From: Bacteroidota bacterium
GTDB lineage: Bacteria > Bacteroidota > Bacteroidia > Chitinophagales > Saprospiraceae
Assembly: GCA_024642665.1 (NCBI GenBank)
Contig: JAHEAR010000013.1
Span: 1 to 64,000 of the forward strand
Direction of reading: 5' to 3'
DNA: 64,000 bases
Below are positions 40,934-56,370 of this stretch, one piece after another; the first letter of the stretch is position 1; the number at the start of each line of letters is the position of its first letter. The position numbers were made by a program, and so were the translations under genes. The notes under the pieces were generated by a model. It had not been told where the DNA came from. It saw only the letters and a program-made list of their open reading frames with translations, and did not search any database.

Positions 40934-41659
40934 TTAAAGTGTATAACTCAACCCTAAGGTCACAATAACCGGAAACGCATCCAGAAATCCACTTTTTGAT
41001 TTTAATTTGAATCCTTCCATCACGGGTGATGCTTCGATGACAAAAGAAGCTCTTCGGGAAATTGATTTGCTATATCCGAATTGAAATGTATTCCAGATGC
41101 CAACCATTTCCATCTCCTCCTCTGCGCTATTACCTTCCATGGGTATTTTATCCATCATTTTTTTAGGTGATCCAAATAAATAATCAGTACAGGCCACTCC
41201 TATGGCACCAATGCCAAACCAAATCTTTGACTCATTTTTCAATTTCACTTCAGCATTCAAGGTAGGCCAGGCAAGCATCCACGCATCTTTATCTTTTTGG
41301 TTTCTCTCCGGATAATAGAGCACGGGTGATTTGGCTATAATGCGCCATTTTTCAGAAGTGTTATTGATTACGGCCTTCATCCGTATACCATAGGCTGACG
41401 ATACCGGTGTTACGCCATATATAATACCCACTGAAAAGTTTCTACTAAACCCATAGGCTATTTGTCCTACACCAATGTAGGGCATCCCGCTATAAAACTC
41501 AATCATGGTTTTACCTTTTTCCGGCATTAAATAATCATGGATTTTACCCTTTTCGTCTTGCCCGACAATATGATTAACAATGGTAAAAAGAATAAGTAGC
41601 GCAAACATGCCTTTCAGGATGGTTTTATTGGCTATTGGATTGATGCTTAACTTTTTCAT
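40934..41659 (-). CDS. Exported barrel-like protein of unknown function
   Basis: This 241-residue protein begins with a signal segment (TILKGMFALLILFTIVNHIV). The rest is mostly beta strands with aromatic residues (QIAYGFSRNFSVGIIYGVTP, then TFQFGYSKSISRRASFVIEA) and ends FPVIVTLGLSYTL, compatible with an outer membrane barrel. No family is recognised. It is transcribed alone, upstream of a 319-bp region that ends at the ferredoxin gene. Confidence 0.72.
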   Translation of the reverse strand: MKKLSINPIANKTILKGMFALLILFTIVNHIVGQDEKGKIHDYLMPEKGKTMIEFYSGMPYIGVGQIAYGFSRNFSVGIIYGVTPVSSAYGIRMKAVINNTSEKWRIIAKSPVLYYPERNQKDKDAWMLAWPTLNAEVKLKNESKIWFGIGAIGVACTDYLFGSPKKMMDKIPMEGNSAEEEMEMVGIWNTFQFGYSKSISRRASFVIEASPVMEGFKLKSKSGFLDAFPVIVTLGLSYTL

Positions 41660-42395: not shown

Positions 42396-43820
42396 CTACA
42401 ATATGGAATATTTCAGACCCACGCCAAGTCCACGAATATAGTCTGTTCGCTGTCCTGTAGACAAATCTGCAGCATATGATTTTTCCGAATTAAGCACATA
42501 TTGATCAAAGCCATGCGTCCAGTTGGCAAAAACATCGAAATGTTTTCCAAGGCGATAGCCTAAACCAAAAAACATCGATGTGTTTGATTTTCTAATCACA
42601 TCGTAACTGCTTAATGAATTACTTAACTCCTCCTGAGGATACGTTGGAATACCCGTCACATCGCCACGCACTATCGGAAACTGACTAAACGCTTCGGTAG
42701 CAAAACCAAATTTCACACCTCCTGAAGCATAGAATCTTCTGGAAAATCGCCAATTGAGCCCAATGTCCACCTGCCACTGCGAAATCGTTTGAACCAATGG
42801 ATTAATTTCAGCATAATCCGCTTCAACATTAATCGACTCAGCATACACATAGCTGTCTAACCCACTTAAAGGATCAAAATTAAGGATGGGATTAAATTCA
42901 CTAAAACTGAGCTTATCCTGTCTGGCCCCCAAAAAATTGGCATTGGGTTTATAGGACGAATAGCCAAGCGCAGTCGTCAGACTAAATCCTCTGGTGATAT
43001 TCAGATCCACCCCGGCTCCGCCATATACACCTAGTCCGCCATTCATCCCCACAAGACTACTGGCCACCAAGGTAGGATTCAATAAGGCAGGAATCCTTTT
43101 CCCTTTTTTATTTGTGTTAGAAAATGCAATTGTTCGATTTGAAGATTCTTCAGCGATCACAGGTATTGGCAGAACAAATACCGGCTCGATGGCCACAGGA
43201 TTTCTTGGCAAGGAAATCAAACTTTCATTAAACTTGTTGTCCAGGTCAACTGAAGTCATAGCCCCCAAACTTCCATTCGCGTCAATATTTTCTATTGTAT
43301 TCAATGCACCCATTTCTATGTCCTCTGACTGCTGATGATCAAGTGCTGCCATTGGCTCTGAAAATTGCTCACCTTTGATGTTCTCCTTTTTGACCGGAAG
43401 AACTTTATCCTGGGCTCGCTTTGTTTGCTTCTGCAAATCCTGATTAATAGAAATCTGATCAACCTTTTTACCTTCGGAAGAAGATGCAGTGATCTTATTT
43501 ACTTCGGTACTTTTCCCGACACCCTCATCATGCAAAGAAGATTCTTCCAATGTAAAAATTGATTCTGCTGCCTCAGCGCCCTGCATACTTTCCGTAGTCA
43601 GTGCCTCTGGTGTCCCGTTCAATCCATTGGAAACATGCACGATCATAAAATAAACACCCAATACGCCGGCAACGATTACAGCTGATGCCGCCCACCAAAA
43701 GAATGGTAGTCGTCTTGATGACTTGCCTTCAGGCATGACCTCATCAAGTAAAGGCTTCATTTTAGCCCATCCTTTTTCAGGGGTGATATTATAATGAGGT
43801 TGCTCTTTCATGATTTTCAT
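42396..43820 (-). CDS. Anti-sigma-like membrane protein with C-terminal outer-membrane-barrel-like domain
   Basis: From the Met at 43820 (MKIMKEQPHYNITPEKGWAK) this is 474 residues, overlapping the sigma factor gene by 32 bp (23 bp if the start is 43811). A short cytoplasmic head is followed by one membrane helix (FFWWAASAVIVAGVLGVYFM). A long low-complexity periplasmic linker of about 170 residues (Ser/Glu/Lys/Asn-rich) leads to a C-terminal region of about 230 residues with Gly/aromatic strands (GGLGVYGGAGVDLNITRGFS, then SMFFGLGYRLGKHFDVFANW) ending GVGLKYSIL. The tail looks like an outer membrane barrel. Its position directly after an ECF sigma factor suggests an anti-sigma or envelope-sensing role. 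Confidence 0.75.
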   Translation of the reverse strand: MKIMKEQPHYNITPEKGWAKMKPLLDEVMPEGKSSRRLPFFWWAASAVIVAGVLGVYFMIVHVSNGLNGTPEALTTESMQGAEAAESIFTLEESSLHDEGVGKSTEVNKITASSSEGKKVDQISINQDLQKQTKRAQDKVLPVKKENIKGEQFSEPMAALDHQQSEDIEMGALNTIENIDANGSLGAMTSVDLDNKFNESLISLPRNPVAIEPVFVLPIPVIAEESSNRTIAFSNTNKKGKRIPALLNPTLVASSLVGMNGGLGVYGGAGVDLNITRGFSLTTALGYSSYKPNANFLGARQDKLSFSEFNPILNFDPLSGLDSYVYAESINVEADYAEINPLVQTISQWQVDIGLNWRFSRRFYASGGVKFGFATEAFSQFPIVRGDVTGIPTYPQEELSNSLSSYDVIRKSNTSMFFGLGYRLGKHFDVFANWTHGFDQYVLNSEKSYAADLSTGQRTDYIRGLGVGLKYSIL

Positions 43821-44334
43821 TTGTAAGTATTGTTCGTAATCTTTCTCTGGCATTGGACAGATGCCACTTGGAAGTCCCTTCACTGATTTGCATTTTCTCA
43901 CCGATTTCCAGGTGCGAAAATCCTTCAATGGCATATAGTTTAAACACTTCTGCTGAACGATATGGAATTCGATCGAGAAGCAAAATCAACTCTTCAAACT
44001 CGAGTGCATCACTTTGCGTAGCCTGGGTGTGCTGTTGCTCCGCTTCTTCAATCTGAATAAAACGGATATAGTTTTTTTCCTTTTTATAAAAATCAGCCAG
44101 CGTGTGGTAAATCAATCGTCTGATCCATCCCTCAAAGGATCCCTCACTTCTAAACGTCCCAACTTTTTGAAATACTTTCAGAAAGCCATCATTCATGATG
44201 AGCATGGCTTTGTCTTCGTCCCGCGTATACTTCATACACATCGCCATCATGGTATGGAAGTATTGCTTATAGAGCAACTCCTGACACTTTCGGTCATTTC
44301 GAATACATCCTTGTATGAGCTCTGCTTCGGTCAA
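43789..44334 (-). CDS. ECF-type RNA polymerase sigma-70 factor
   Basis: This 181-residue sigma factor has region 2 (LYKQYFHTMMAMCMKYTRDE, then AMLIMNDGFLKVFQKVGTFR and SFEGWIRRLIYHTLADFYKK). It also has region 4 with the helix-turn-helix AIEGFSHLEIGEKMQISEGT followed by SKWHLSNARERLRTIL. It directs RNA polymerase to a specific promoter set, usually after release from an anti-sigma factor. The next gene overlaps its end and encodes a membrane-anchored protein that may be that partner. It is separated from the upstream lipoprotein gene by 58 bp. Confidence 0.93.
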   Translation of the reverse strand: MTEAELIQGCIRNDRKCQELLYKQYFHTMMAMCMKYTRDEDKAMLIMNDGFLKVFQKVGTFRSEGSFEGWIRRLIYHTLADFYKKEKNYIRFIQIEEAEQQHTQATQSDALEFEELILLLDRIPYRSAEVFKLYAIEGFSHLEIGEKMQISEGTSKWHLSNARERLRTILTNENHERATSL

Positions 44335-44392: not shown

Positions 44393-44896
44393 TTATTGAT
44401 TAATTAAGATAATTTTTTCGTTGATACGGGTGACAAAATTATTATACACATCCGGCATGTTAGACGAGTTCTGATCCAACAACCAGAAACCTGATTTTGC
44501 AGCTGCATCCACATACTTTATTTCTACATAGATACCACCCCAGTCTCCTGCATCCGGCTGTCCGATATAATTTACAGTTTCATTGTATAACTCCTCCGGA
44601 AAATAATCAATGATATCTTTTACTAACTCATATTTTATTTTGGGTAAAGAAATATATATCCCATCATAAGGTGTCTCTGATGTCGGGTAGACGTCGGTGG
44701 TGTCCTCCCAAAGTCTTTCATTTTCGAGCTTATATATTTCTATACAGCCTTCTCCGCCACACTCTCCATAGAAATGCCCAAAAATAAAATACGCTAGTTC
44801 GCCCGGTGCAGGACTTACCATAGCATCTTTCTTATCGCAAGACAAACTCAATAATACCAGCACAATCGCCACTAAACTAAATATGAATTTCCTCAT
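44393..44896 (-). CDS. Small lipoprotein of unknown function
   Basis: This 167-residue protein has a lipoprotein signal (FSLVAIVLVLLSLSC, Cys20). A domain starts AYFIFGHFYGECGGEGCIEI with several Cys and aromatic residues, and later contains PDAGDWGGIYVEIKYVDAAA. No family is recognised. It sits 11 bp after the barrel-like gene stop and 58 bp before the sigma factor gene, so it may be part of the same transcript. Confidence 0.8.
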   Translation of the reverse strand: MRKFIFSLVAIVLVLLSLSCDKKDAMVSPAPGELAYFIFGHFYGECGGEGCIEIYKLENERLWEDTTDVYPTSETPYDGIYISLPKIKYELVKDIIDYFPEELYNETVNYIGQPDAGDWGGIYVEIKYVDAAAKSGFWLLDQNSSNMPDVYNNFVTRINEKIILINQ

Positions 44897-44907
44897 CGTC
44901 CTTTATT

Positions 44908-45702
44908 TTAAAATAATAAACCTGTTCGCATTTCAATCCTTCGATAACTTAACTTGTCTGTAAATCTGCCTTGCCCGTCCCATGGGAAAAATGAATTGGT
45001 AAAGGTGGCGTTCTGCAATTTATACTCTAACCCTAAATAATAATTTACGTTTTTACCGCCAAACCGAACTCCTAGTTCAGGACTTAAATACAACCCTCCT
45101 TTTGCATCAAATGTACCTTCATCGACATTATTCAACGCAAACCCGTAGCCGATTTTGAACGCGTAATAAGGTGTAATTTTCTTCGGCAAAAAATAGCCTC
45201 GAACTTCAGCAAACAAAGGAATAATCCTTCGGCTATAATCAAAATCATTTGTCTCGAAGCCTGTTCCGATCCCTACCCCTAACAGTCGACTAAACTTATG
45301 CCCTGCAGAATAATGGATGCCTGCTCCTCCACTGAAAGAAAAATTAAGAAAAACAGAAAAGGTGTTATACATCCCTGTCTCTTTAAATGCATAAGGTCTT
45401 CGACCGCTAGTATACCCGGTATGTAAATCAAATTGAGAGGCATCAAAAGGCACTCCCTGATAGACTTTTGCGATGTCATTTTTTGGGATCACCAATAATG
45501 CGCCGGTCATTAATTTAAATTCCATACCCCGAGCTAATTCCCATTTTTGAATCGTACCACTCAAGGTGCTTCCATCCTTAAGCCAAACATTATCAACGAT
45601 TGGCCTGGAGTCCCCGGAGATGGTATCCGTCTCTTGTCCAAATGCTACAGCAGCAATCGTGAGAAAAAGAAATACATGGAGGTTTAAAAAAATATTTTTC
45701 AT
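44908..45702 (-). CDS. Exported outer-membrane-barrel-like protein
   Basis: This 264-residue protein has a signal peptide (LHVFLFLTIAAVAFGQE). A short module follows (VWLKDGSTLSGTIQKWELAR, then LVIPKNDIAKVYQG), which resembles a beta-strand motif found before barrels in Bacteroidota. Many aromatic strands come next (SVFLNFSFSGGAGIHYSAGH, then AVRFGGKNVNYYLGLEYKL-like sequence), and the end is RIEMRTGLLF with a terminal Phe, typical of an outer membrane barrel. The lipoprotein gene follows after 11 bp. Confidence 0.8.
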   Translation of the reverse strand: MKNIFLNLHVFLFLTIAAVAFGQETDTISGDSRPIVDNVWLKDGSTLSGTIQKWELARGMEFKLMTGALLVIPKNDIAKVYQGVPFDASQFDLHTGYTSGRRPYAFKETGMYNTFSVFLNFSFSGGAGIHYSAGHKFSRLLGVGIGTGFETNDFDYSRRIIPLFAEVRGYFLPKKITPYYAFKIGYGFALNNVDEGTFDAKGGLYLSPELGVRFGGKNVNYYLGLEYKLQNATFTNSFFPWDGQGRFTDKLSYRRIEMRTGLLF

Positions 45703-45853: not shown

Positions 45854-47137
45854 TTATTGACCAATAGAAATCACACTCAGTTGCCTGAGGTCACTTCTAT
45901 CTGTAGCATCGAATTGATACAATCCATTTCGGCCTACTACCATCACATGATCACCTTGAGGTAATGCTATCACATCAAACGCTTCGAATCCAGTAACATG
46001 GGATTGCAGATTAGCACTGATGGTCTTAGGATTACTCACATCAAAAATTTTAAGTCCGAAAGTGCCTTCACAGAGATATAGGGTCTGATCTACGACCGAA
46101 AGTCCATGTGGATTACTCATCGGATAGGACCTGATCAGGCTGGGGTTGGACAAATTGGAAACATCCACCACATCCAGCTGATTGATAAAACCAAGACACT
46201 CGGTGCCATCCCGCAATGTGACATACGCAGTATTCCCTGAAACAACCACCGGATCACAGGCTGTCGCATGGGCAAATGTTGATACATAAGTGGGTTGTTC
46301 CGGATTAGAAATATCATAAATTAATAGTCCGGAATTAGAGCCTATGAAAAGATTTCCTCCCATCGGAAATAAGGTTTCTATGCCCCATTGCATGGTAACT
46401 TCATTTTTCAAAACCGGCTGTGTCTGTGCTACGCTAAAGACTTTGACTTCAGCGCCATCAATCGTATACAAGTAATCATCTGCGGCTGTAAACCTAGCCA
46501 TAGACCCACCGGTGACAACTCCGCTGTTGACACTTGCTGTTGAGGAAAGCCAGTTGGTATTTCCAAAATTTCCATCTATTGCCATCATCACATCACCTTC
46601 AAACCAAATCGTATTGCCCCAGTTTGGATTACTGCAGTCAATGGTTCGTCTGATATCCATTGGTTTATATTCCACTAGATACCCTGCCTGATCTGTATAG
46701 GAATAGAAGTTTTGAAATACATCTTCCACACGGCTGACTTCCGACGGGGATGTTGGATTAGCGATATCAATGGCCACAAGATCCAGGTAACTATCTACAT
46801 AAAGCACATCGTTATGTACGGCCATATCCAGACTTCCCGGAATATTTATAAATCCAATATTCTGTGGACTTTCCGGTTGTCGGTTGTCGATCACATGCAC
46901 ACCTTCATTCTGCTCATTGATCAACAAATATCCTTTGTAATAAAATATTTTTCCCGGAACGGTAAGCGCCCTAGCAGCATCATACGTAACAGGCACACGC
47001 ATTTCATCAATTCGTTTGTACACAGGCTCATAAGCAACATATTCTTCTGTGCGGGTACATTTGTCTTGCTCGCAACTGGTGACGATGACTGAAACGAGTA
47101 GCAGCATCAAAAAAGCGGAAATCATCTGATATTTCAT
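45854..47137 (-). CDS. LVIVD repeat lipoprotein
   Basis: This 427-residue protein has a lipoprotein signal (FLMLLLVSVIVTSC, Cys22) and then LVIVD-type repeats that build a beta propeller. Examples are VHVIDNRQPESPQNIGFINI, LVAIDIANPTSPSEVSRVED, LLIYDISNPEQPTYVSTF and LKIFDVSNPKTISANL. Such propellers are common in Bacteroidota cell-surface lipoproteins, and the ligand is unknown. The gene is on the minus strand, upstream of the barrel-lipoprotein-sigma set, but the strong terminator after it keeps it separate. Confidence 0.9.
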   Translation of the reverse strand: MKYQMISAFLMLLLVSVIVTSCEQDKCTRTEEYVAYEPVYKRIDEMRVPVTYDAARALTVPGKIFYYKGYLLINEQNEGVHVIDNRQPESPQNIGFINIPGSLDMAVHNDVLYVDSYLDLVAIDIANPTSPSEVSRVEDVFQNFYSYTDQAGYLVEYKPMDIRRTIDCSNPNWGNTIWFEGDVMMAIDGNFGNTNWLSSTASVNSGVVTGGSMARFTAADDYLYTIDGAEVKVFSVAQTQPVLKNEVTMQWGIETLFPMGGNLFIGSNSGLLIYDISNPEQPTYVSTFAHATACDPVVVSGNTAYVTLRDGTECLGFINQLDVVDVSNLSNPSLIRSYPMSNPHGLSVVDQTLYLCEGTFGLKIFDVSNPKTISANLQSHVTGFEAFDVIALPQGDHVMVVGRNGLYQFDATDRSDLRQLSVISIGQ

Positions 47138-47293
47138 ATGGGTAGGTTTGTTTCCCGGATAGACGGCCTTGTGTGGGTTTAAGGTTGGGTATCCCGGGAA
47201 GATTAATTTAAACGCCTAAAGCTTATTCGTTCTGAAAATTAGCTAAAAAAGGAACGTTTGGAAAGGCGAAATAATGCTTATACCATGCATTTT

Positions 47294-49038: not shown

Positions 49039-52000
49039 TCAGTTTCCGGAAGAAAAAAGTTTATAGGCTTCTATTTCTCCATCCCCTATCTGTACGGCTA
49101 GCACATATACCCCAGGGGGGAAATTTAATTGGTCCATCGTATAGGATACTGCATTTGGTACCAATATTTCTTCTCTCACCAGTTTTCCGGTAACATCAAA
49201 AATTCTAAAGGTCACTTCTTTTTCTACGACACTACTGAAACTTACTGCAATCTTATCAGAAAAAGGATTTGGAATGACGGTATTGACAATATCCGGTTCC
49301 ACATTTCGCCTGACGACAATGGTGTCGCTGTAGAAATCATAGGCATACCCCAGATCTGTATTTTCATTGATTACCTTAAGTCGGTAATAAATCACATTGC
49401 GCAAACTTTGGTCTACACGCGTATACTGTGTTGCGAATGTGCTGACACCACTCTTTGCCGGTTGATTGGCAACTTCTGAAAATCCAAATCCTGTAAAAGA
49501 TCTTTCTACCAGAAATCGCTTACACTGATATTCAACACCTGTTGTCCAATTGATGGTGATTTCCTGATCGCCGGTATAGCCGGCATTAAATACAGTGACC
49601 GTAGTCTTTAATTCACCTTCGAATTTCGTCACCTCTACATCATCAATAGCAACTCCTTGCGCCTGAATTTCTGAATCGGATTGAAATACAAACCTGAAAC
49701 TCACTGTAGGTTCTCCTGCCAGAAAGCTTACGTCCGTTATATACTGAGTCCAATTGAGTTGTGCATTGGTGAAATAATCTTTGCCAATCGGAAAGGCTCC
49801 ATCCGAAAGATTTTCATTGGCATAGTTGTACCAGTAGGGAATATTTTTTACCCCGAGTTGTTTCCACGAAGCTCCCGCATCTGTCGAGTATTCGACCTGG
49901 AATCCATCGTTTCTGTTTTGCACAGCGTATTTACCAAAAAACTTAAATTCATATAAACCTGGCTCTGTTAAATCAAACATAGGAGTATACAATTCAGATC
50001 GAGAATTATCGGCGTACAAATTATCATTGATACCGGTCACCCAAGCGGTTGTTCCACTGTGTGTACCATCTTTCCCCGGTTTAGTAGAGACACCTCTTTG
50101 GAATGGTGTTCCTTCCGGCGTGTAAGCCGCGAAATGTTCAGGACCGGATTCAAAATCACCGGCATAGCCCGCACTTCCTTTCTCATAAGGGGATGGTAGG
50201 TAAGGCAGGACAGCAATTTTCCTGGTTTGTGTGATACTGCCATTAATGGTTAATGTCAGCGTGTATGTCCCGGGTGTATCATACGTATGGCTTATCACGG
50301 CTTGATTGGAAGTAGTATTGTCACCTAAATTCCATTCGAAATCTTGGGCATTGATGGACTGTGAACCATCGATAACTACCGGGAGGCCTTCATAGGCAAT
50401 TGGTTGGGCAATAATCACCGGTGCCGGTGCTGAGAAAACTTCTGTTGTCATCAACCCTCTTCCGTATGTAGCCGCCAGAACGACTTTATCTGAATCCCTA
50501 AGCTGAAGCATATCCACTCTTACAAATGGCATTCCATTGTCGGGATTGGTGGGCTCCCAATGCGTATTATCGCCATCGATATCTTCTGTCGTCCATACCC
50601 CAGCATCTGTAGCAATCATTGCCCTGTCATGGTTGGCCGGATCGAACATAGCCCAGCGTACCGGAAGATCCGGAAGATCTCCCTCTATAGAAGTCCACTC
50701 ACCCCCATCATCCCGTGTGATCCAAATATTTTTCAGACCGGAGCCAAAATTGAACAAGGAAATCAATCCGTCATTTGGATTGACTTTATCTATATAGACA
50801 CAGGAAACTCTGGCCGATCCCGGAAGATCTGCATAAAGACTTGCATTCAGCGATTTTCCAACATGAGCGTTATCGACTCTTACGACCAGGCCGGACTGTC
50901 CTCCAAAATAAACTCGGTTAGCTACGTTCGGATCAGCCAATACAGCTGTAACATCAATATCATAATTTGTGATATCCACGTCATCATCTACGGCTGAGGT
51001 GTTAATATTCCATCTGAAGAAATCTACATCCGGTACGCCGGTTCTATTGACTTGTCCGTATAAAATATTAGCATCATTATCATAATCGGATCGATTGACA
51101 AAAGCACCATTGACGCTTGCGCCAAATCCGAAACTAAACCCACCGTTTTGCGACAAGCCATAATTTCCACCCTGTGAAGAGACGATTTGAATATTTGGTT
51201 CATTCTGATCAATAAAACAAAACATGCCGTCACCTCCCCAGGCAGTGATAGACGGAGATGCTCCTGCATCACTGATGATGAGTGAATTATTATCCTGTGT
51301 CCCCCCCATCACATATGGTGAAGCAGGATCAGGATGTATAGCACCGGCATAAAATTGTGTAGTTAAATACCCTGAACTCTTATCCGTAGATGAGGTGCCT
51401 CCATTTCCACTGATCCAGATACCGCCGTCATTTCCAAACAAAACACGATTTACGCGTTCAGGATCAAACGTAATATTGTGATGATCAACGTGCATCCCTT
51501 GTGATACCACATGCCAGTTAAAGGCCTGATTGGTAGTTTCTGCCATGTTGACACCACCTGATAGAAGTTTATTACAATTGAAGGGATCAACCGCTAAATC
51601 AAGGTCGTACCAGGCCTGTCCATAGTCTTGAAAAATGGCCGGGACTGCACGCGTTACCCAATTCTCACCACCATCATACGACACATACGTTTCGGAAGAA
51701 AAAGAGCCTACTGCCCCAATCGCAAAAATCACATCCGGGTCACTGGGGCAAACTGCAAATTCAATTCGATTCACATTACTTGGGAATCCGGGCTTACCTC
51801 TTCCGATATTGACCCAATCCCCTACATCTCCGGTAGTAGATTTGTATATGCTATTGTCATTGGCGGCATAAAAAGTCTGATTGGTTTCCACAAAATAAAA
51901 ATCGTGAAAGTTATTACTGCTGGCGCCATTAAATCCGGTCCCCACTACTTTTGTCCAGGTACCTCCTCCATCCTGACTGCGAAGCACACCCCCATAAGCG

Positions 52001-52662
52001 GAAGATGCGTACACATCACTATTGGTGTGTACATAGATTTCATTTACGGTACTTAAAAACGAATTGGCGGTAGAGGGTAATAATACCCATGTTGCCCCAT
52101 CATCGACCGATTTAAAGATTCCGGCGCCCTGAACATCCCCGGTATAACTTTCCCCGGTGGAAACGTACACTGTATTCAAGTCATTGGGATCCTTATCAAT
52201 CCCGGAGATAGAAAGGCTTTCAAAATAGATACCCAGATTTTCCCATTCCGGATTGGCCTGAGTGATATCCGCTGAGCGCCATAAGCCCCCGGAAACACCG
52301 CCGGTCCAGATGCGATTCCGACTTGGATCTGATTCATCGATCATAATGGCTCTGGTTCGCCCTCCCCTGTTGCTGGGTCCTCTTTCCCGCCAGACAGGAT
52401 CTGACAGGCTTCCTCTTGAAACTCTACTTCGAGCTGAGGAGGAAAGTCGACTCTTGCCTTCATCTATGGCCGCAAAAAGTTTATCATAGGGAATTGTGCC
52501 TCGATCAACATCCATAGAAGTCATCCGATAGTCATCGATGGCTCCCTGGATTCGCTCCTGTTTTGAAAATTGTTTTGGCGACTGCTCTACCCGGTAAGTG
52601 TATATTGCCACTACCGCTATGGCAATCACAAGCATTGAAGTGAGGAAATAAATCTTTCGCAT
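49039..52662 (-). CDS. T9SS type A secreted protein with VPS10/BNR propeller, PKD and MAM-like domains
   Basis: This 1207-residue secreted protein starts with a signal segment (YFLTSMLVIAIAVVAIYTY). The first 750 residues are BNR/sortilin-like propeller repeats (GIFKSVDDGATWVLLPS, YVSYDGGENWVTR, WITRDDGGEWTSIEGDLPD). A PKD domain follows at about 755-835 (FEWNLGDNTTSNQAVISHTY), then a MAM/lectin-like sandwich at about 845-1040 with VAIDDVEVTKFEGEL, and a beta domain with EITINWTTGVEYQCKRF. It ends with the type A sorting domain (NPFSDKIAVSFSS, then GVYVLAVQIGDGEIEAYKLF). The neighbour at 52741 is a close paralogue with the same domain order. The substrate or partner is unknown. Confidence 0.93.
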   Translation of the reverse strand: MRKIYFLTSMLVIAIAVVAIYTYRVEQSPKQFSKQERIQGAIDDYRMTSMDVDRGTIPYDKLFAAIDEGKSRLSSSARSRVSRGSLSDPVWRERGPSNRGGRTRAIMIDESDPSRNRIWTGGVSGGLWRSADITQANPEWENLGIYFESLSISGIDKDPNDLNTVYVSTGESYTGDVQGAGIFKSVDDGATWVLLPSTANSFLSTVNEIYVHTNSDVYASSAYGGVLRSQDGGGTWTKVVGTGFNGASSNNFHDFYFVETNQTFYAANDNSIYKSTTGDVGDWVNIGRGKPGFPSNVNRIEFAVCPSDPDVIFAIGAVGSFSSETYVSYDGGENWVTRAVPAIFQDYGQAWYDLDLAVDPFNCNKLLSGGVNMAETTNQAFNWHVVSQGMHVDHHNITFDPERVNRVLFGNDGGIWISGNGGTSSTDKSSGYLTTQFYAGAIHPDPASPYVMGGTQDNNSLIISDAGASPSITAWGGDGMFCFIDQNEPNIQIVSSQGGNYGLSQNGGFSFGFGASVNGAFVNRSDYDNDANILYGQVNRTGVPDVDFFRWNINTSAVDDDVDITNYDIDVTAVLADPNVANRVYFGGQSGLVVRVDNAHVGKSLNASLYADLPGSARVSCVYIDKVNPNDGLISLFNFGSGLKNIWITRDDGGEWTSIEGDLPDLPVRWAMFDPANHDRAMIATDAGVWTTEDIDGDNTHWEPTNPDNGMPFVRVDMLQLRDSDKVVLAATYGRGLMTTEVFSAPAPVIIAQPIAYEGLPVVIDGSQSINAQDFEWNLGDNTTSNQAVISHTYDTPGTYTLTLTINGSITQTRKIAVLPYLPSPYEKGSAGYAGDFESGPEHFAAYTPEGTPFQRGVSTKPGKDGTHSGTTAWVTGINDNLYADNSRSELYTPMFDLTEPGLYEFKFFGKYAVQNRNDGFQVEYSTDAGASWKQLGVKNIPYWYNYANENLSDGAFPIGKDYFTNAQLNWTQYITDVSFLAGEPTVSFRFVFQSDSEIQAQGVAIDDVEVTKFEGELKTTVTVFNAGYTGDQEITINWTTGVEYQCKRFLVERSFTGFGFSEVANQPAKSGVSTFATQYTRVDQSLRNVIYYRLKVINENTDLGYAYDFYSDTIVVRRNVEPDIVNTVIPNPFSDKIAVSFSSVVEKEVTFRIFDVTGKLVREEILVPNAVSYTMDQLNFPPGVYVLAVQIGDGEIEAYKLFSSGN

Positions 52663-52740: not shown

Positions 52741-55700
52741 TTAACCGCTCGTAAACAGTTTATAAGCCGATACGTCTCCGTTGCCGATTTGTACCGTGAG
52801 AATATAAACACCCGGAGTCAATTTTAGTTGATCGATCTGATAGGATACAGCATTCGGAACAGCTTTTTCCTCCATCACCTGACGGCCACTTGCATCAAAC
52901 AATCTGAACGAAACCTCCTGATCCACGATGCTGCTAAAGCTTACTCCTATAAAATCTTTAAATGGATTTGGCAAAACATTGTAAACAATATCTTCCGCTA
53001 CATTCTTTCTGACCACAATTGTATCCGTGTAGAAATCATTTTGATACCCGATAGCAGCATTTTCATTCACCACTTTCAATCGATAATAAATGATATCCCG
53101 TAGACTTGGATCCGTCGTCGTATAGGTATGTGCTTGTGTACTAACCACGCCTTTGGCAGGAATGGTCGCCACGGGACTAAAACCAAATCCGGTAAAGGAT
53201 CGCTCAAGAATAAATTTCTGACATTGATATTCAATCCCTGTTGTCCAGTTGATCGTCACTTCCTGTTCGGCAGTATAACTTGCATTAAACACTGTGACAT
53301 TGGTTTCTAAAGCGCCTGTATATTTTGTCACTTCAAAATCATCGATGGCAAAACCCTGCGCCGGCTCACTATCATCTGATCTGAAAACATATCTAAAACT
53401 TACTGTGGATTGTCCAGCCAGAAAACTTATATCCTTTATGTATTGTGTCCAATTAAGTTGGGCATTGGTAAAGTAAGATTTCCCAATCGGAAAAGCACCA
53501 TCTGAAATCTGTGTATTGTGATAGTTGTACCAATTGGCGTCATTGGTTGTGCCTAATTGCGTCCACATAAGTCCACCATCTAAAGAGTATTCTATCTGAA
53601 ATCCATCTCTTCGATTTTCTATCGCATATTTTGCATAAAACTTGAGTTCATACAAGCCTTGCGCTGTCAGATCAAACATGGGTGTATATAATTCAGCTCT
53701 TGTATTATTCTGATACAAATCATCATTGATTCCAAGTACCCATGCATTATCGCCACTATGGGTGCCGTCCTTTCCGGGCTTTGTGGACTTTCCTCTTTGG
53801 ATACTTGTACCCTGCACCAAAACAGCTGCAAAGTGTTCCGGCATTACTTCAAAATCACCGGCAAAGTCAGCTCCATTTTTCTGATAAGGTGAAGGGAGAT
53901 AAGGAAGGATCGCTATCGATTGTGATTTCGTGCTAGATCCATTGATCGTCAGTGCTATGTTATATACACCCGGCTCATCATACACATGCGTAAAAGTTGG
54001 GTCCTGTGACATATTGCTGTCCCCTAAATCCCATTCATAACTTTGTGCATTGACAGATTGTGATCCATCGATGGTCACCGGTTGTCCCTGATAGGCTACC
54101 GATTGTGTACGGATGACTGGTGTAGCTGCTGCAAAAAAATCAGTGGTAAACATCCCCCTTCCATGTGTGACGCCTAATACTACTTTATCGCTTTCGCGAA
54201 GCAACAACATATTTACTTTGACAAATGGCATTCCGTTAGCAGGTGGGATTGGTTCCCAATGGGTATTATCACCATCAATGTCATCCGTGACCCACACGCC
54301 TGCCTCGGTAGCAATCATCGCCCGATCATGGTCTGTGGGATCAAATAGTGCCCATCGAACCGGCATATCAGGTAAGTCACCTTCTATCGAATTCCACTCG
54401 CCTCCACCATCATAGGTGACCCACACATTTTTAAGCGCACTGCCAAAATTGAAAATAGTGACAATGATATGATTCTCATTTAAACGATCCAGATAAATAC
54501 TTGATACGGCTGCATTGACAGGAAGATTGGCTATTTCAACAGAGGTCGGGTCACCAATATTTGCATTATCAACTCTCAGAACTTTCCCTCCATCTCCTCC
54601 AAAAAACATACGATTTGGCGTGTTTGGATCAGCTTTTATAGCGGTAACATTCAGCCCGTTATTGATAATATTTACTTCATCATAAGCGCCTGAAATGACA
54701 TTCCATCGGAAATAATCCTTCCCATTGGTATTTAGTTGGCCATAGAGAATTTGTGCATCATCATCATACCCGGATCGGTTGATGAAAGATCCGTTTACAT
54801 CAACGCCGGCGTTAAAACTCTGACCGCCATTAGTAGACAAGCCATAATTTCCATTTTGAGAAGAAACGATCTGAATAGTCGGATCATTCTGATCTATAAA
54901 ACAGAAGACACCATCACCTCCCCAAACAGAATTGCCTTCAGCAAACCCATCTGAAATAATCTGAGGAGATCCGTTATCCTGCGTACCTCCAATGATGTAC
55001 GGAGAACTTTCGTCCGGATGAATAGCACCGCAATAAAACTGGGTGGTCGCATAGCCGAAATTCTTGTTGGTAATGGTTTGACCGCCATTTTCACTCAGCC
55101 AGATACCTCCGTCATTACCGAATAAAACACGGCCCTGAATTTTGGGATCGAAAGTGATGTTGTGCTGATCTGCATGCATATTTCCCGGAAGTGGTGTCCA
55201 GCTAATCCCTTGAAATGAACTTTCGAAAGATCGGACTCCACCGGCGATGAGTCTTCCACAATTAAATGGATCTGCTGCGATGTCCAGGTCATACCAGGCC
55301 TGGCCATTGGTAAAATCATCTCCGGGCGAATTACCCGGTGCCTGGCGAGTAGTCCAGGAGGCACCACCGTCATTGGATACATAGGTATCAGAGGCGGAAC
55401 CATTAACAGATCCAAGCACATAAATGGCATCCGGATTGGAATAGCAAACTGCCATTTCTACTCTGACAAGATTATTCGGAAATCCCGGTTGTGATGTCCC
55501 AATATTATTCCAATCGCCGCGATCTCCATTTAACGATTTAAAAATGGAATTTGCATTCGAGGCATAAAATGTCTGATTGATCTCATTGTAAGTGAAATCA
55601 TAAAAATTATTATTGCTTGCCCCTGAAAGTGAAGTACCTAATACTTTTTCCCACGTTTCACCACCATCCTTACTTCGACGCACACCACCGATGGAAGTAC

Positions 55701-56370
55701 AAGCATACACATCACCGTTTGTATGCACATAGATTTCATGTACATCATCAAAATTGCTGTTCTGAGTAGAGGGTAACCACTCCCATGTAGCACCATCATC
55801 TGTTGATTTAAAAATACCTGCTCCGGTGACCGCGTCTATGTTTGGGAAGCCTTCGCCGGTGCCAACATAAATCACATTAAAATCATTCGGGTCCTGTGCG
55901 ATACTGCCGATGGCAATGTTGTTCAGATCAAGTGCGAGCATTTCCCACTGAGGATCACTTTGTGTAATGTCCTCTGTGCGCCACAATCCGCCTGACACAC
56001 TTCCTATCCATATTCGATTTCGATTCGGATCGCCCTGATCGATCATGATAGCACGCGTTCTGCCACCAATATTATTTGGACCTCGCATCTTCCACTTTGC
56101 ATTCGTAAGACTTGCTCCGGTGCGGGTACCGGACGCTTTGGCTTTGGCGACCCGGGATTTTGCTTCTTTAATTGCGCTAAACCATTTTGCATGGGGAATA
56201 TAGCCCAGATCAACATCTGAACTTGTAAACACCATATCTTCTATGGCTCCGGCAATACTCTCTGCTTTATTTGATTCCTCGGAGTCGCCGGCCAATTCTT
56301 TTTGGAAGGATTGATGGATAAAAAAGAAAGCCAGAAGGGCTAAGGGGATGAAATATAAAATCTTTCGCAT
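52741..56370 (-). CDS. T9SS type A secreted protein, tandem paralogue
   Basis: This 1209-residue protein repeats the domain order of the neighbouring 1207-residue protein. It has a signal segment (LYFIPLALLAFFFIHQSF), BNR/sortilin-like repeats (GIFKSTDDGATWEWLPS, YVSNDGGASWTTR, WVTYDGGGEWNSIEGDLPD), a PKD module (YEWDLGDSNMSQDPTFTHVY), and a MAM-like sandwich ending AIDDFEVTKYTGALET. The beta domain has VTINWTTGIEYQCQKF and the sorting domain reads NPFKDFIGVSFSSIVDQEVS with a GVYILTVQIGNGDVSAYKLF end. The two genes are 78 bp apart and lie in the same direction, indicating tandem duplication. Their N-terminal 80 residues differ most. The role is unknown. Confidence 0.93.
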   Translation of the reverse strand: MRKILYFIPLALLAFFFIHQSFQKELAGDSEESNKAESIAGAIEDMVFTSSDVDLGYIPHAKWFSAIKEAKSRVAKAKASGTRTGASLTNAKWKMRGPNNIGGRTRAIMIDQGDPNRNRIWIGSVSGGLWRTEDITQSDPQWEMLALDLNNIAIGSIAQDPNDFNVIYVGTGEGFPNIDAVTGAGIFKSTDDGATWEWLPSTQNSNFDDVHEIYVHTNGDVYACTSIGGVRRSKDGGETWEKVLGTSLSGASNNNFYDFTYNEINQTFYASNANSIFKSLNGDRGDWNNIGTSQPGFPNNLVRVEMAVCYSNPDAIYVLGSVNGSASDTYVSNDGGASWTTRQAPGNSPGDDFTNGQAWYDLDIAADPFNCGRLIAGGVRSFESSFQGISWTPLPGNMHADQHNITFDPKIQGRVLFGNDGGIWLSENGGQTITNKNFGYATTQFYCGAIHPDESSPYIIGGTQDNGSPQIISDGFAEGNSVWGGDGVFCFIDQNDPTIQIVSSQNGNYGLSTNGGQSFNAGVDVNGSFINRSGYDDDAQILYGQLNTNGKDYFRWNVISGAYDEVNIINNGLNVTAIKADPNTPNRMFFGGDGGKVLRVDNANIGDPTSVEIANLPVNAAVSSIYLDRLNENHIIVTIFNFGSALKNVWVTYDGGGEWNSIEGDLPDMPVRWALFDPTDHDRAMIATEAGVWVTDDIDGDNTHWEPIPPANGMPFVKVNMLLLRESDKVVLGVTHGRGMFTTDFFAAATPVIRTQSVAYQGQPVTIDGSQSVNAQSYEWDLGDSNMSQDPTFTHVYDEPGVYNIALTINGSSTKSQSIAILPYLPSPYQKNGADFAGDFEVMPEHFAAVLVQGTSIQRGKSTKPGKDGTHSGDNAWVLGINDDLYQNNTRAELYTPMFDLTAQGLYELKFYAKYAIENRRDGFQIEYSLDGGLMWTQLGTTNDANWYNYHNTQISDGAFPIGKSYFTNAQLNWTQYIKDISFLAGQSTVSFRYVFRSDDSEPAQGFAIDDFEVTKYTGALETNVTVFNASYTAEQEVTINWTTGIEYQCQKFILERSFTGFGFSPVATIPAKGVVSTQAHTYTTTDPSLRDIIYYRLKVVNENAAIGYQNDFYTDTIVVRKNVAEDIVYNVLPNPFKDFIGVSFSSIVDQEVSFRLFDASGRQVMEEKAVPNAVSYQIDQLKLTPGVYILTVQIGNGDVSAYKLFTSG

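Follow-up and report, generated by a model that had tools for sequence, protein, structure and literature searches.

The whole stretch of DNA analysed here (the window, 64,000 nt of a Saprospiraceae genome of 3.7 Mb in 72 contigs) very probably encodes a Dma-type sigma/anti-sigma switch, which would control its own operon together with a small number of unlinked genes for lipoproteins or secreted proteins. The putative switch is formed by the last two genes of a five-gene run on the minus strand (47137-42396), which leads from an LVIVD-repeat lipoprotein to a Dma-like protein and is flanked by ordinary genes, encoding an Obg GTPase, an adenylate kinase, a ferredoxin, a MATE transporter and sorted PKD proteins. 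The same strand of the window also encodes a 241-aa protein (40934-41659) whose N-terminus resembles a signal peptide and whose end is barrel-like, and for which Pfam gives no convincing family. Two PKD/sortilin-like proteins of similar size, each with a Por_Secre_tail sorting domain, are encoded side by side at 49039-52662 and 52741-56370.

An ECF sigma gene and its predicted two-membrane partner

The sigma gene (43789..44334, minus strand) encodes 181 residues from a TTG start, this start codon being uncertain. Its product aligns with orthologues of the family and matches Pfam PF08281 and PF04542, with Sigma70_r2 scoring 34 bits against a cut-off of 24, and r4_2 scoring 42 against 25.7. For the partner gene, the longest open reading frame begins at 43934; a same-genus relative with 44% identity, however, begins at the position of the window ATG 43820, so the partner is most likely a 474-aa protein (42396..43820, minus strand) whose gene overlaps that of the sigma factor by 32 nt. 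Both reading frames lie on the minus strand where an earlier, sequence-only reading of this DNA had placed them, and the overlap that it noted is borne out, with its length set by the corrected start.

Pfam matches, the alignment, an AlphaFold2 model and fold comparisons together suggest that this partner is a Dma-like anti-sigma protein. The model, calculated on an alignment of 20 proteins (the window protein and 19 from related loci), places a 36-residue head ahead of a single inner-membrane helix at residues 37-65 (43626..43712, minus strand), which is also seen in the hydropathy profile. A disordered, presumably periplasmic tether of ~175 residues follows (residues ~65-240, 43101..43625, minus strand, pLDDT <50), leading into a predicted eight-stranded, OmpA/NspA-like barrel (residues 245-474, 42399..43088, minus strand), the strands of which lie at residues 245-471. 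Model confidence is low overall (mean pLDDT 57.6, pTM 0.43) and unevenly distributed, with block values of 77-97 over the strands and <60 in the tether and most loops. This predicted arrangement is the one that the sequence-only reading had described, with its short head, one membrane helix, long linker and barrel-like end.

The barrel assignment is supported by sequence profiles and by fold. OMP_b-brl_2 (PF13568) matches the partner above its cut-off (31.8 versus 27 bits) and is found in 12/20 members of the alignment, with OMP_b-brl in 7/20. In VIA-align comparisons, the best PDB matches of the modelled barrel are to transmembrane barrels, namely NspA (Z 16.9, rmsd 2.8, 150 residues aligned), a designed transmembrane barrel (Z 16.1, rmsd 1.6, 117 aligned), OmpA (1qjp, Z 15.8, rmsd 2.3, 134 aligned) and OprF (Z 15.6), and Foldseek also returned mostly transmembrane barrels. 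Soluble barrels match as well, although at lower scores, with two designed ones at Z 13.8 (8ah9) and Z 13.5 (6ohh), and natural ones such as PsbO and TT1927b at Z 9-10. The C-terminus, KYSIL, resembles the ends of barrel proteins. The strands proposed from the letters alone thus hold as a prediction, and the soluble domain that had been named as the observation that would speak against them is not what the model suggests. A protein of this layout would cross both membranes, as had been proposed for it, and the same layout has been published for the Dma proteins and for a pair in Phocaeicola vulgatus.

A conserved tryptophan motif in the cytoplasmic head

Ahead of the membrane helix, the head contains a predicted helix at residues 14-28 (43737..43781, minus strand) carrying the motif W18..M21...L25. 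The sole invariant columns of the 20-protein alignment are M4, W18, L25 and P30, two of which belong to this motif. Generalised as W-x2-[ILMV]-x3-[LIM], the motif is present in all 64 family heads listed (64/64, including a few near-duplicates), compared to a shuffled mean of 5.1 and a maximum of 12. Of the listed heads that adjoin related sigmas in other Bacteroidota, 46/52 have it too (shuffled mean 3.7, maximum 10), these and the family heads being the sequences on which the motif was first seen; in this test, no partner was found at loci L143 and L198, and one more locus had no usable head. In a later draw of 30 Bacteroidales loci, 3/30 had no sigma ORF or partner, and 25/27 partners carried the motif when Ala was also allowed at its fourth position. 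From this conservation, we infer that the head helix with its W motif is the sigma-binding element, and it may represent a common minimal sigma-binding helix for the Dma class.

Other types of anti-sigma head were considered and rejected. FecR-type regulation is characterised by a FecR domain and a nearby TonB-dependent receptor, and RsiW-type zinc anti-sigma factors by an H-x3-C-x2-C motif in the head. Neither Pfam nor NCBIfam detected a FecR domain in the partner, Pfam found no TonB-dependent receptor among the 14 neighbouring products (37503-58683), and the head before the membrane helix contains no Cys, hence no RsiW-type zinc motif, and has no Pfam match. The search for an RsiW- or FecR-like head, proposed as a check in the sequence-only reading, thus gave no support for one by sequence.

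Two further observations concern heads of this kind. In L126, L162, L170, L179, L185 and L186, two to four tandem copies of the W motif precede the membrane helix, which might allow a single anti-sigma protein to bind more than one sigma molecule. In L232, L233, L248 and the own-genome locus L320 (contig C67), the sigma partner has a similar head and membrane helix within only 167-268 aa, which is too short for a tether and barrel and perhaps represents a single-membrane version of the same switch.

Spread of the sigma/partner pair

Relatives were taken from the sigma alignment as the best 80 of 588 candidates, and Saprospiraceae make up 18/26 of its best-ranked records (L131-L156). To describe the pairs, loci L091-L156 with >1.7 kb of downstream sequence each were collapsed at 90% identity into 56 clusters. 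In 55/56 of these listed clusters, the partner is at least 340 aa long and has a hydrophobic helix within residues 1-160, and 25/56 share an identical 11-nt sigma/partner overlap. The arrangement is commoner than expected by chance.

Searching with the partner protein was less productive than searching with the sigma factor: matches were obtained in 4 of 60 genomes, own included, and a scan of genome contigs with the partner found no relative, while the sigma alignment did find relatives. We attribute the small number of partner matches to divergence outside the head. Within the own genome, six sigmas score 123.7-276.3 bits on the family profile and the rest at most 63.5; a large downstream partner is present in 5/6 of them (one cut by the locus end), and the remaining one has a 167-aa partner.

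Further variants were also noticed. Two Bacteroidales sigma matches lie inside frames of 417-419 aa (G092:C34:4242-4823 and G146:C188:7350-7934), reminiscent of the published sigma-fused Dma3. Outside the family studied, L159, L164, L166 and L192 have partners of 651-928 aa and sigmas with an upstream CCAACC...GTCT element.

A conserved operon with an LVIVD lipoprotein and a barrel protein

Upstream of the sigma gene, and also on the minus strand, the operon begins with the LVIVD-repeat lipoprotein (45854..47137, PF08309), followed by a predicted 264-aa outer-membrane protein (OMP; 44908..45702) and a 167-aa lipoprotein of the FGHFYGECGGEGC family (44393..44896), the latter two being recognised through homologues in other genomes and, for the OMP, through its model as well. 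The order LVIVD-repeat lipoprotein, barrel OMP, sigma and Dma is conserved, with the small lipoprotein added in this genus. The OMP model (mean pLDDT 80) starts with a helix of the kind expected for a signal peptide, which is followed by a small five-stranded domain at residues 35-85 and an eight-stranded barrel; fold comparison, which covers the barrel only, gives NspA/OmpW-like matches. For the small N-terminal domain, family candidates were rejected as sub-threshold, with LSM reaching E 0.014 in 1/11 members and NF047433 below its cut-off.

In a search of 60 genomes (own included), we found OMP homologues in 38 and the LVIVD lipoprotein in 39. Apart from the own genome, 38 had an LVIVD match, and neighbourhoods were counted in all of these but G010 and G020 (36 genomes). 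The OMP lies within 2 kb of LVIVD in 31/36 of these genomes, and a Dma-type sigma lies within 3.5 kb of LVIVD in 21/36, which we read as 20 without G017, where the sigma is weak (148 bits) and on the opposite strand. Since regions were chosen by sigma or LVIVD matches, these counts are conditional, and some misses reflect contig ends (G022, G024). In G043 and G056, the OMP gene is inverted, yet still adjoins LVIVD-sigma. Homologues of the 167-aa lipoprotein are present in 9/60 genomes, own included, and among the matches listed, record L133 is the sole case outside this genus in which one stands beside the sigma. Among the 54 lower-ranked records L157-L210 of the best 80 of 588 candidates, L174 is the only one with OMP/LVIVD beside the sigma.

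A candidate promoter that tracks the unit holding the sigma gene

The operon is headed by a candidate ECF-type promoter, ACCCAACC-N18-GTCTA (47160..47190, minus strand), a two-block element ahead of the LVIVD gene. The pattern CCAACC-N17/18-GTCT occurs once in the window (47188-47161, minus strand), 23 nt before the LVIVD start codon, compared to 0.29 occurrences expected by chance in the window. We first noticed the element on visual inspection of the sequences ahead of LVIVD genes, and it precedes LVIVD in 17/30 regions with the sigma nearby (window included, some near-duplicates; shuffle mean 0.06) and in 8/18 regions without this sigma beside it (shuffle mean 0.055), these counts being in-sample.

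A comparison of loci with different gene orders, all excluding the window's own operon, was more informative. In the listed loci with OMP/LVIVD in front, the exact element was found at the sigma in 0/40 and at the OMP or LVIVD in 24/40, most of the latter also being in-sample. Where the sigma is first in its unit, the exact element lies within 350 nt of the sigma in 14/26 listed loci; these independent loci were not used to find the element and therefore provide the stronger test of the promoter. Other Bacteroidota have the exact element at 4/53 of the loci listed, and a reversed-pattern control gave 0 in all three groups. Collapsing sigmas >90% identical, which removed six of them, left these proportions similar, with 13/24 for sigma-first, 0/38 at the sigma and 22/38 at OMP/LVIVD for OMP/LVIVD in front, and 4/51 for others, the exact element being missing in 16/38 clusters with OMP/LVIVD in front and 11/24 sigma-first clusters. 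With one mismatch allowed and >150 nt upstream, the element was present at 30/36 operon heads, 17/26 sigma-first loci and 11/53 others (controls 1, 1 and 3), and it was still missing in 6/36 and 9/26 of the first two groups. In genomes where the cluster is split, both pieces have an exact site in G014, G015, G028, G029 and G035, only the sigma piece in G016, and neither piece in G005 and G017. The element thus tracks the unit that holds the sigma, which is the pattern expected for autoregulation.

A small predicted regulon rich in lipoproteins

Genome-wide, the loose pattern CCAACC-N17/18-GTCT gave 13 matches versus 17 for the reversed control in the own genome (G000), and 12 versus 12 in G001. 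This lack of excess argues against a large regulon, and a regulon based on the loose count was rejected, orthologous or strict sites being retained instead. Four sites are orthologous in both genomes of the genus, and all precede lipoprotein or secreted genes, one of them (in G001) lying within a longer ORF unless the lipoprotein starts at an inner Met. Apart from the operon, the predicted set in the own genome comprises lipoprotein genes behind the sites at C5:108441 and C21:31328 and a secreted-protein gene behind C53:1753. A strict pattern yielded 53 matches against 18 for the reversed control in 20 genomes, with 5/20 genomes having none. These 53 reduce to 30 distinct sites with a locus past the position filter, 12 of which are inside a long ORF or have no ORF within 130 nt. 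For the strict intergenic sites with an ORF within 130 nt, 14/18 precede lipobox ORFs, or 12/16 without the two LVIVD sites used to see the motif, compared to a background of 70/493; the lipobox rule is our own, and the background consists of uncurated ORFs of the same regions, operon lipoproteins among them.

The element also stands ahead of homologues of the 167-aa lipoprotein in G030 and G018, that is, at 2/10 distinct homologues outside this operon type, and within the own operon type, no element directly precedes the gene of this lipoprotein. The own genome has five further Dma-type sigmas; for four of them, the loose-pattern listing shows no site on the contig, and for the fifth (on C41), the sole site on the contig is 24 kb away, so the element looks specific to the sigma of this operon. 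Judging from these sites, the operon appears to regulate itself as well as several lipoproteins, which we read as an autoregulated outer-membrane/lipoprotein response.

Discussion

According to our model, the short amphipathic head of the 474-aa protein would hold the ECF sigma factor at the inner membrane, with the disordered tether crossing the periplasm and the C-terminal barrel sitting in the outer membrane. Release of the sigma would follow a change at that membrane, for which misassembly of the barrel, a ligand or a state signalled by the OMP/LVIVD pair are candidates. From the ACCCAACC-N17/18-GTCTA promoter, free sigma would transcribe both the operon to which it belongs (genes for the LVIVD lipoprotein, the barrel OMP, the small lipoprotein, sigma and Dma) and a small number of unlinked genes for lipoproteins or secreted proteins, and Dma, made last from the operon, would reset the switch.

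The partner might instead be an ordinary single-membrane anti-sigma protein, with a soluble periplasmic beta-barrel at its C-terminus and the signal read in the periplasm. We regard this as unlikely: low overall model confidence, the soluble barrels among the fold matches and the partners of only about 220-270 aa beside related Bacteroidota sigmas elsewhere would be in line with it, but the Pfam outer-membrane barrel model is matched above cut-off, transmembrane barrels account for nearly all of the top fold matches (Z 15-17), and the C-terminus resembles that of a barrel. Less likely still is that the barrel protein is a co-transcribed outer-membrane target, with the sigma controlled by the OMP/LVIVD pair or by expression level only. 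In its favour, the sigma often adjoins OMP and LVIVD, the head has only ~36 residues and its sigma-binding role is deduced from conservation. Against it, the most conserved residues of the whole protein are in that head, the same head motif is found in L232, L233 and L248, the partners of which leave no room for a tether and barrel, and in published work, loss of homologous Dma genes activates the sigma (PMC13088901, PMC9308784).

The cluster and promoter could also reflect shared ancestry of neighbouring genes rather than a single regulated pathway, a reading that is compatible with a Dma switch. The relatives searched belong to one order, and OMP/LVIVD is beside the sigma in a single one of the records L157-L210 from the best 80 of 588 candidates, as this reading would predict; against it, both pieces of the split cluster keep the site in five genomes, unlinked lipoprotein homologues carry the site in G030 and G018, and the inverted OMP still adjoins LVIVD-sigma in G043 and G056, which leaves shared ancestry alone improbable.

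Beyond the Dma-type switch itself, we tentatively consider a more specific possibility, that the operon is a self-contained lipoprotein-surveillance circuit, in which LVIVD and OMP would partner the Dma barrel as its sensor or cargo, a dedicated lipoprotein regulon would be served by one promoter, and Dma would report on lipoprotein or outer-membrane assembly or surface display. If true, sensor, promoter and output would all be defined for what would be a separate branch of the Dma proteins. In the open-licence literature, we found no paper tying LVIVD proteins or Saprospiraceae to such a switch.

In the FecI/FecR/FecA system, an outer-membrane signal is carried to an ECF sigma factor, with the roles split over a receptor and FecR. 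The window pair would share this route from the outer membrane to an ECF sigma, but it has no FecR domain and no nearby TonB-dependent receptor. Another known system is the pair M0N98_03760-61 of Phocaeicola vulgatus, which includes an anti-sigma factor predicted to cross the periplasm and to have an outer-membrane barrel, is induced by the envelope-damaging toxin BcpT, and yields longer O-antigen when mutated (PMC9308784); the EcfO pair of Bacteroides fragilis is cited there as a similar ECF sigma/anti-sigma pair (PMC9308784). The P. vulgatus pair resembles that of the window in its predicted two-membrane anti-sigma factor and differs in lineage.

The closest known systems are Dma1/Das1 and Dma2/Das2 of Bacteroides thetaiotaomicron, reported in the only relevant paper on ECF21 that we found in the open-licence literature. 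According to that paper, Dma proteins are restricted to Bacteroidota and consist of a sigma-binding head, a membrane helix, a disordered tether and a barrel, with an adjacent ECF21 sigma, and the sigma of Dma1 is derepressed when Dma1 is lost (PMC13088901). For the window partner, which adjoins an ECF sigma, the prediction is a short head helix with the conserved W motif, a single membrane helix at 37-65, a long disordered tether and a C-terminal barrel, a likeness in layout to the published description. The Dma family layout of the partner is thus supported and, having already been published, makes the window protein a new member and not a new architecture. The 2026 Dma2 paper leaves open which substrate is sensed and how vesiculation comes about (PMC13088901). 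With its candidate promoter, small lipoprotein-rich predicted regulon and co-encoded barrel/lipoprotein pair, the branch described here would make this question of Dma sensing directly testable. Dma2 is described as part of a three-gene operon with das2 and BT_1557, the latter of unknown function (PMC13088901); the window operon instead combines its sigma and Dma-like genes with an LVIVD lipoprotein, a barrel OMP and a lipoprotein.
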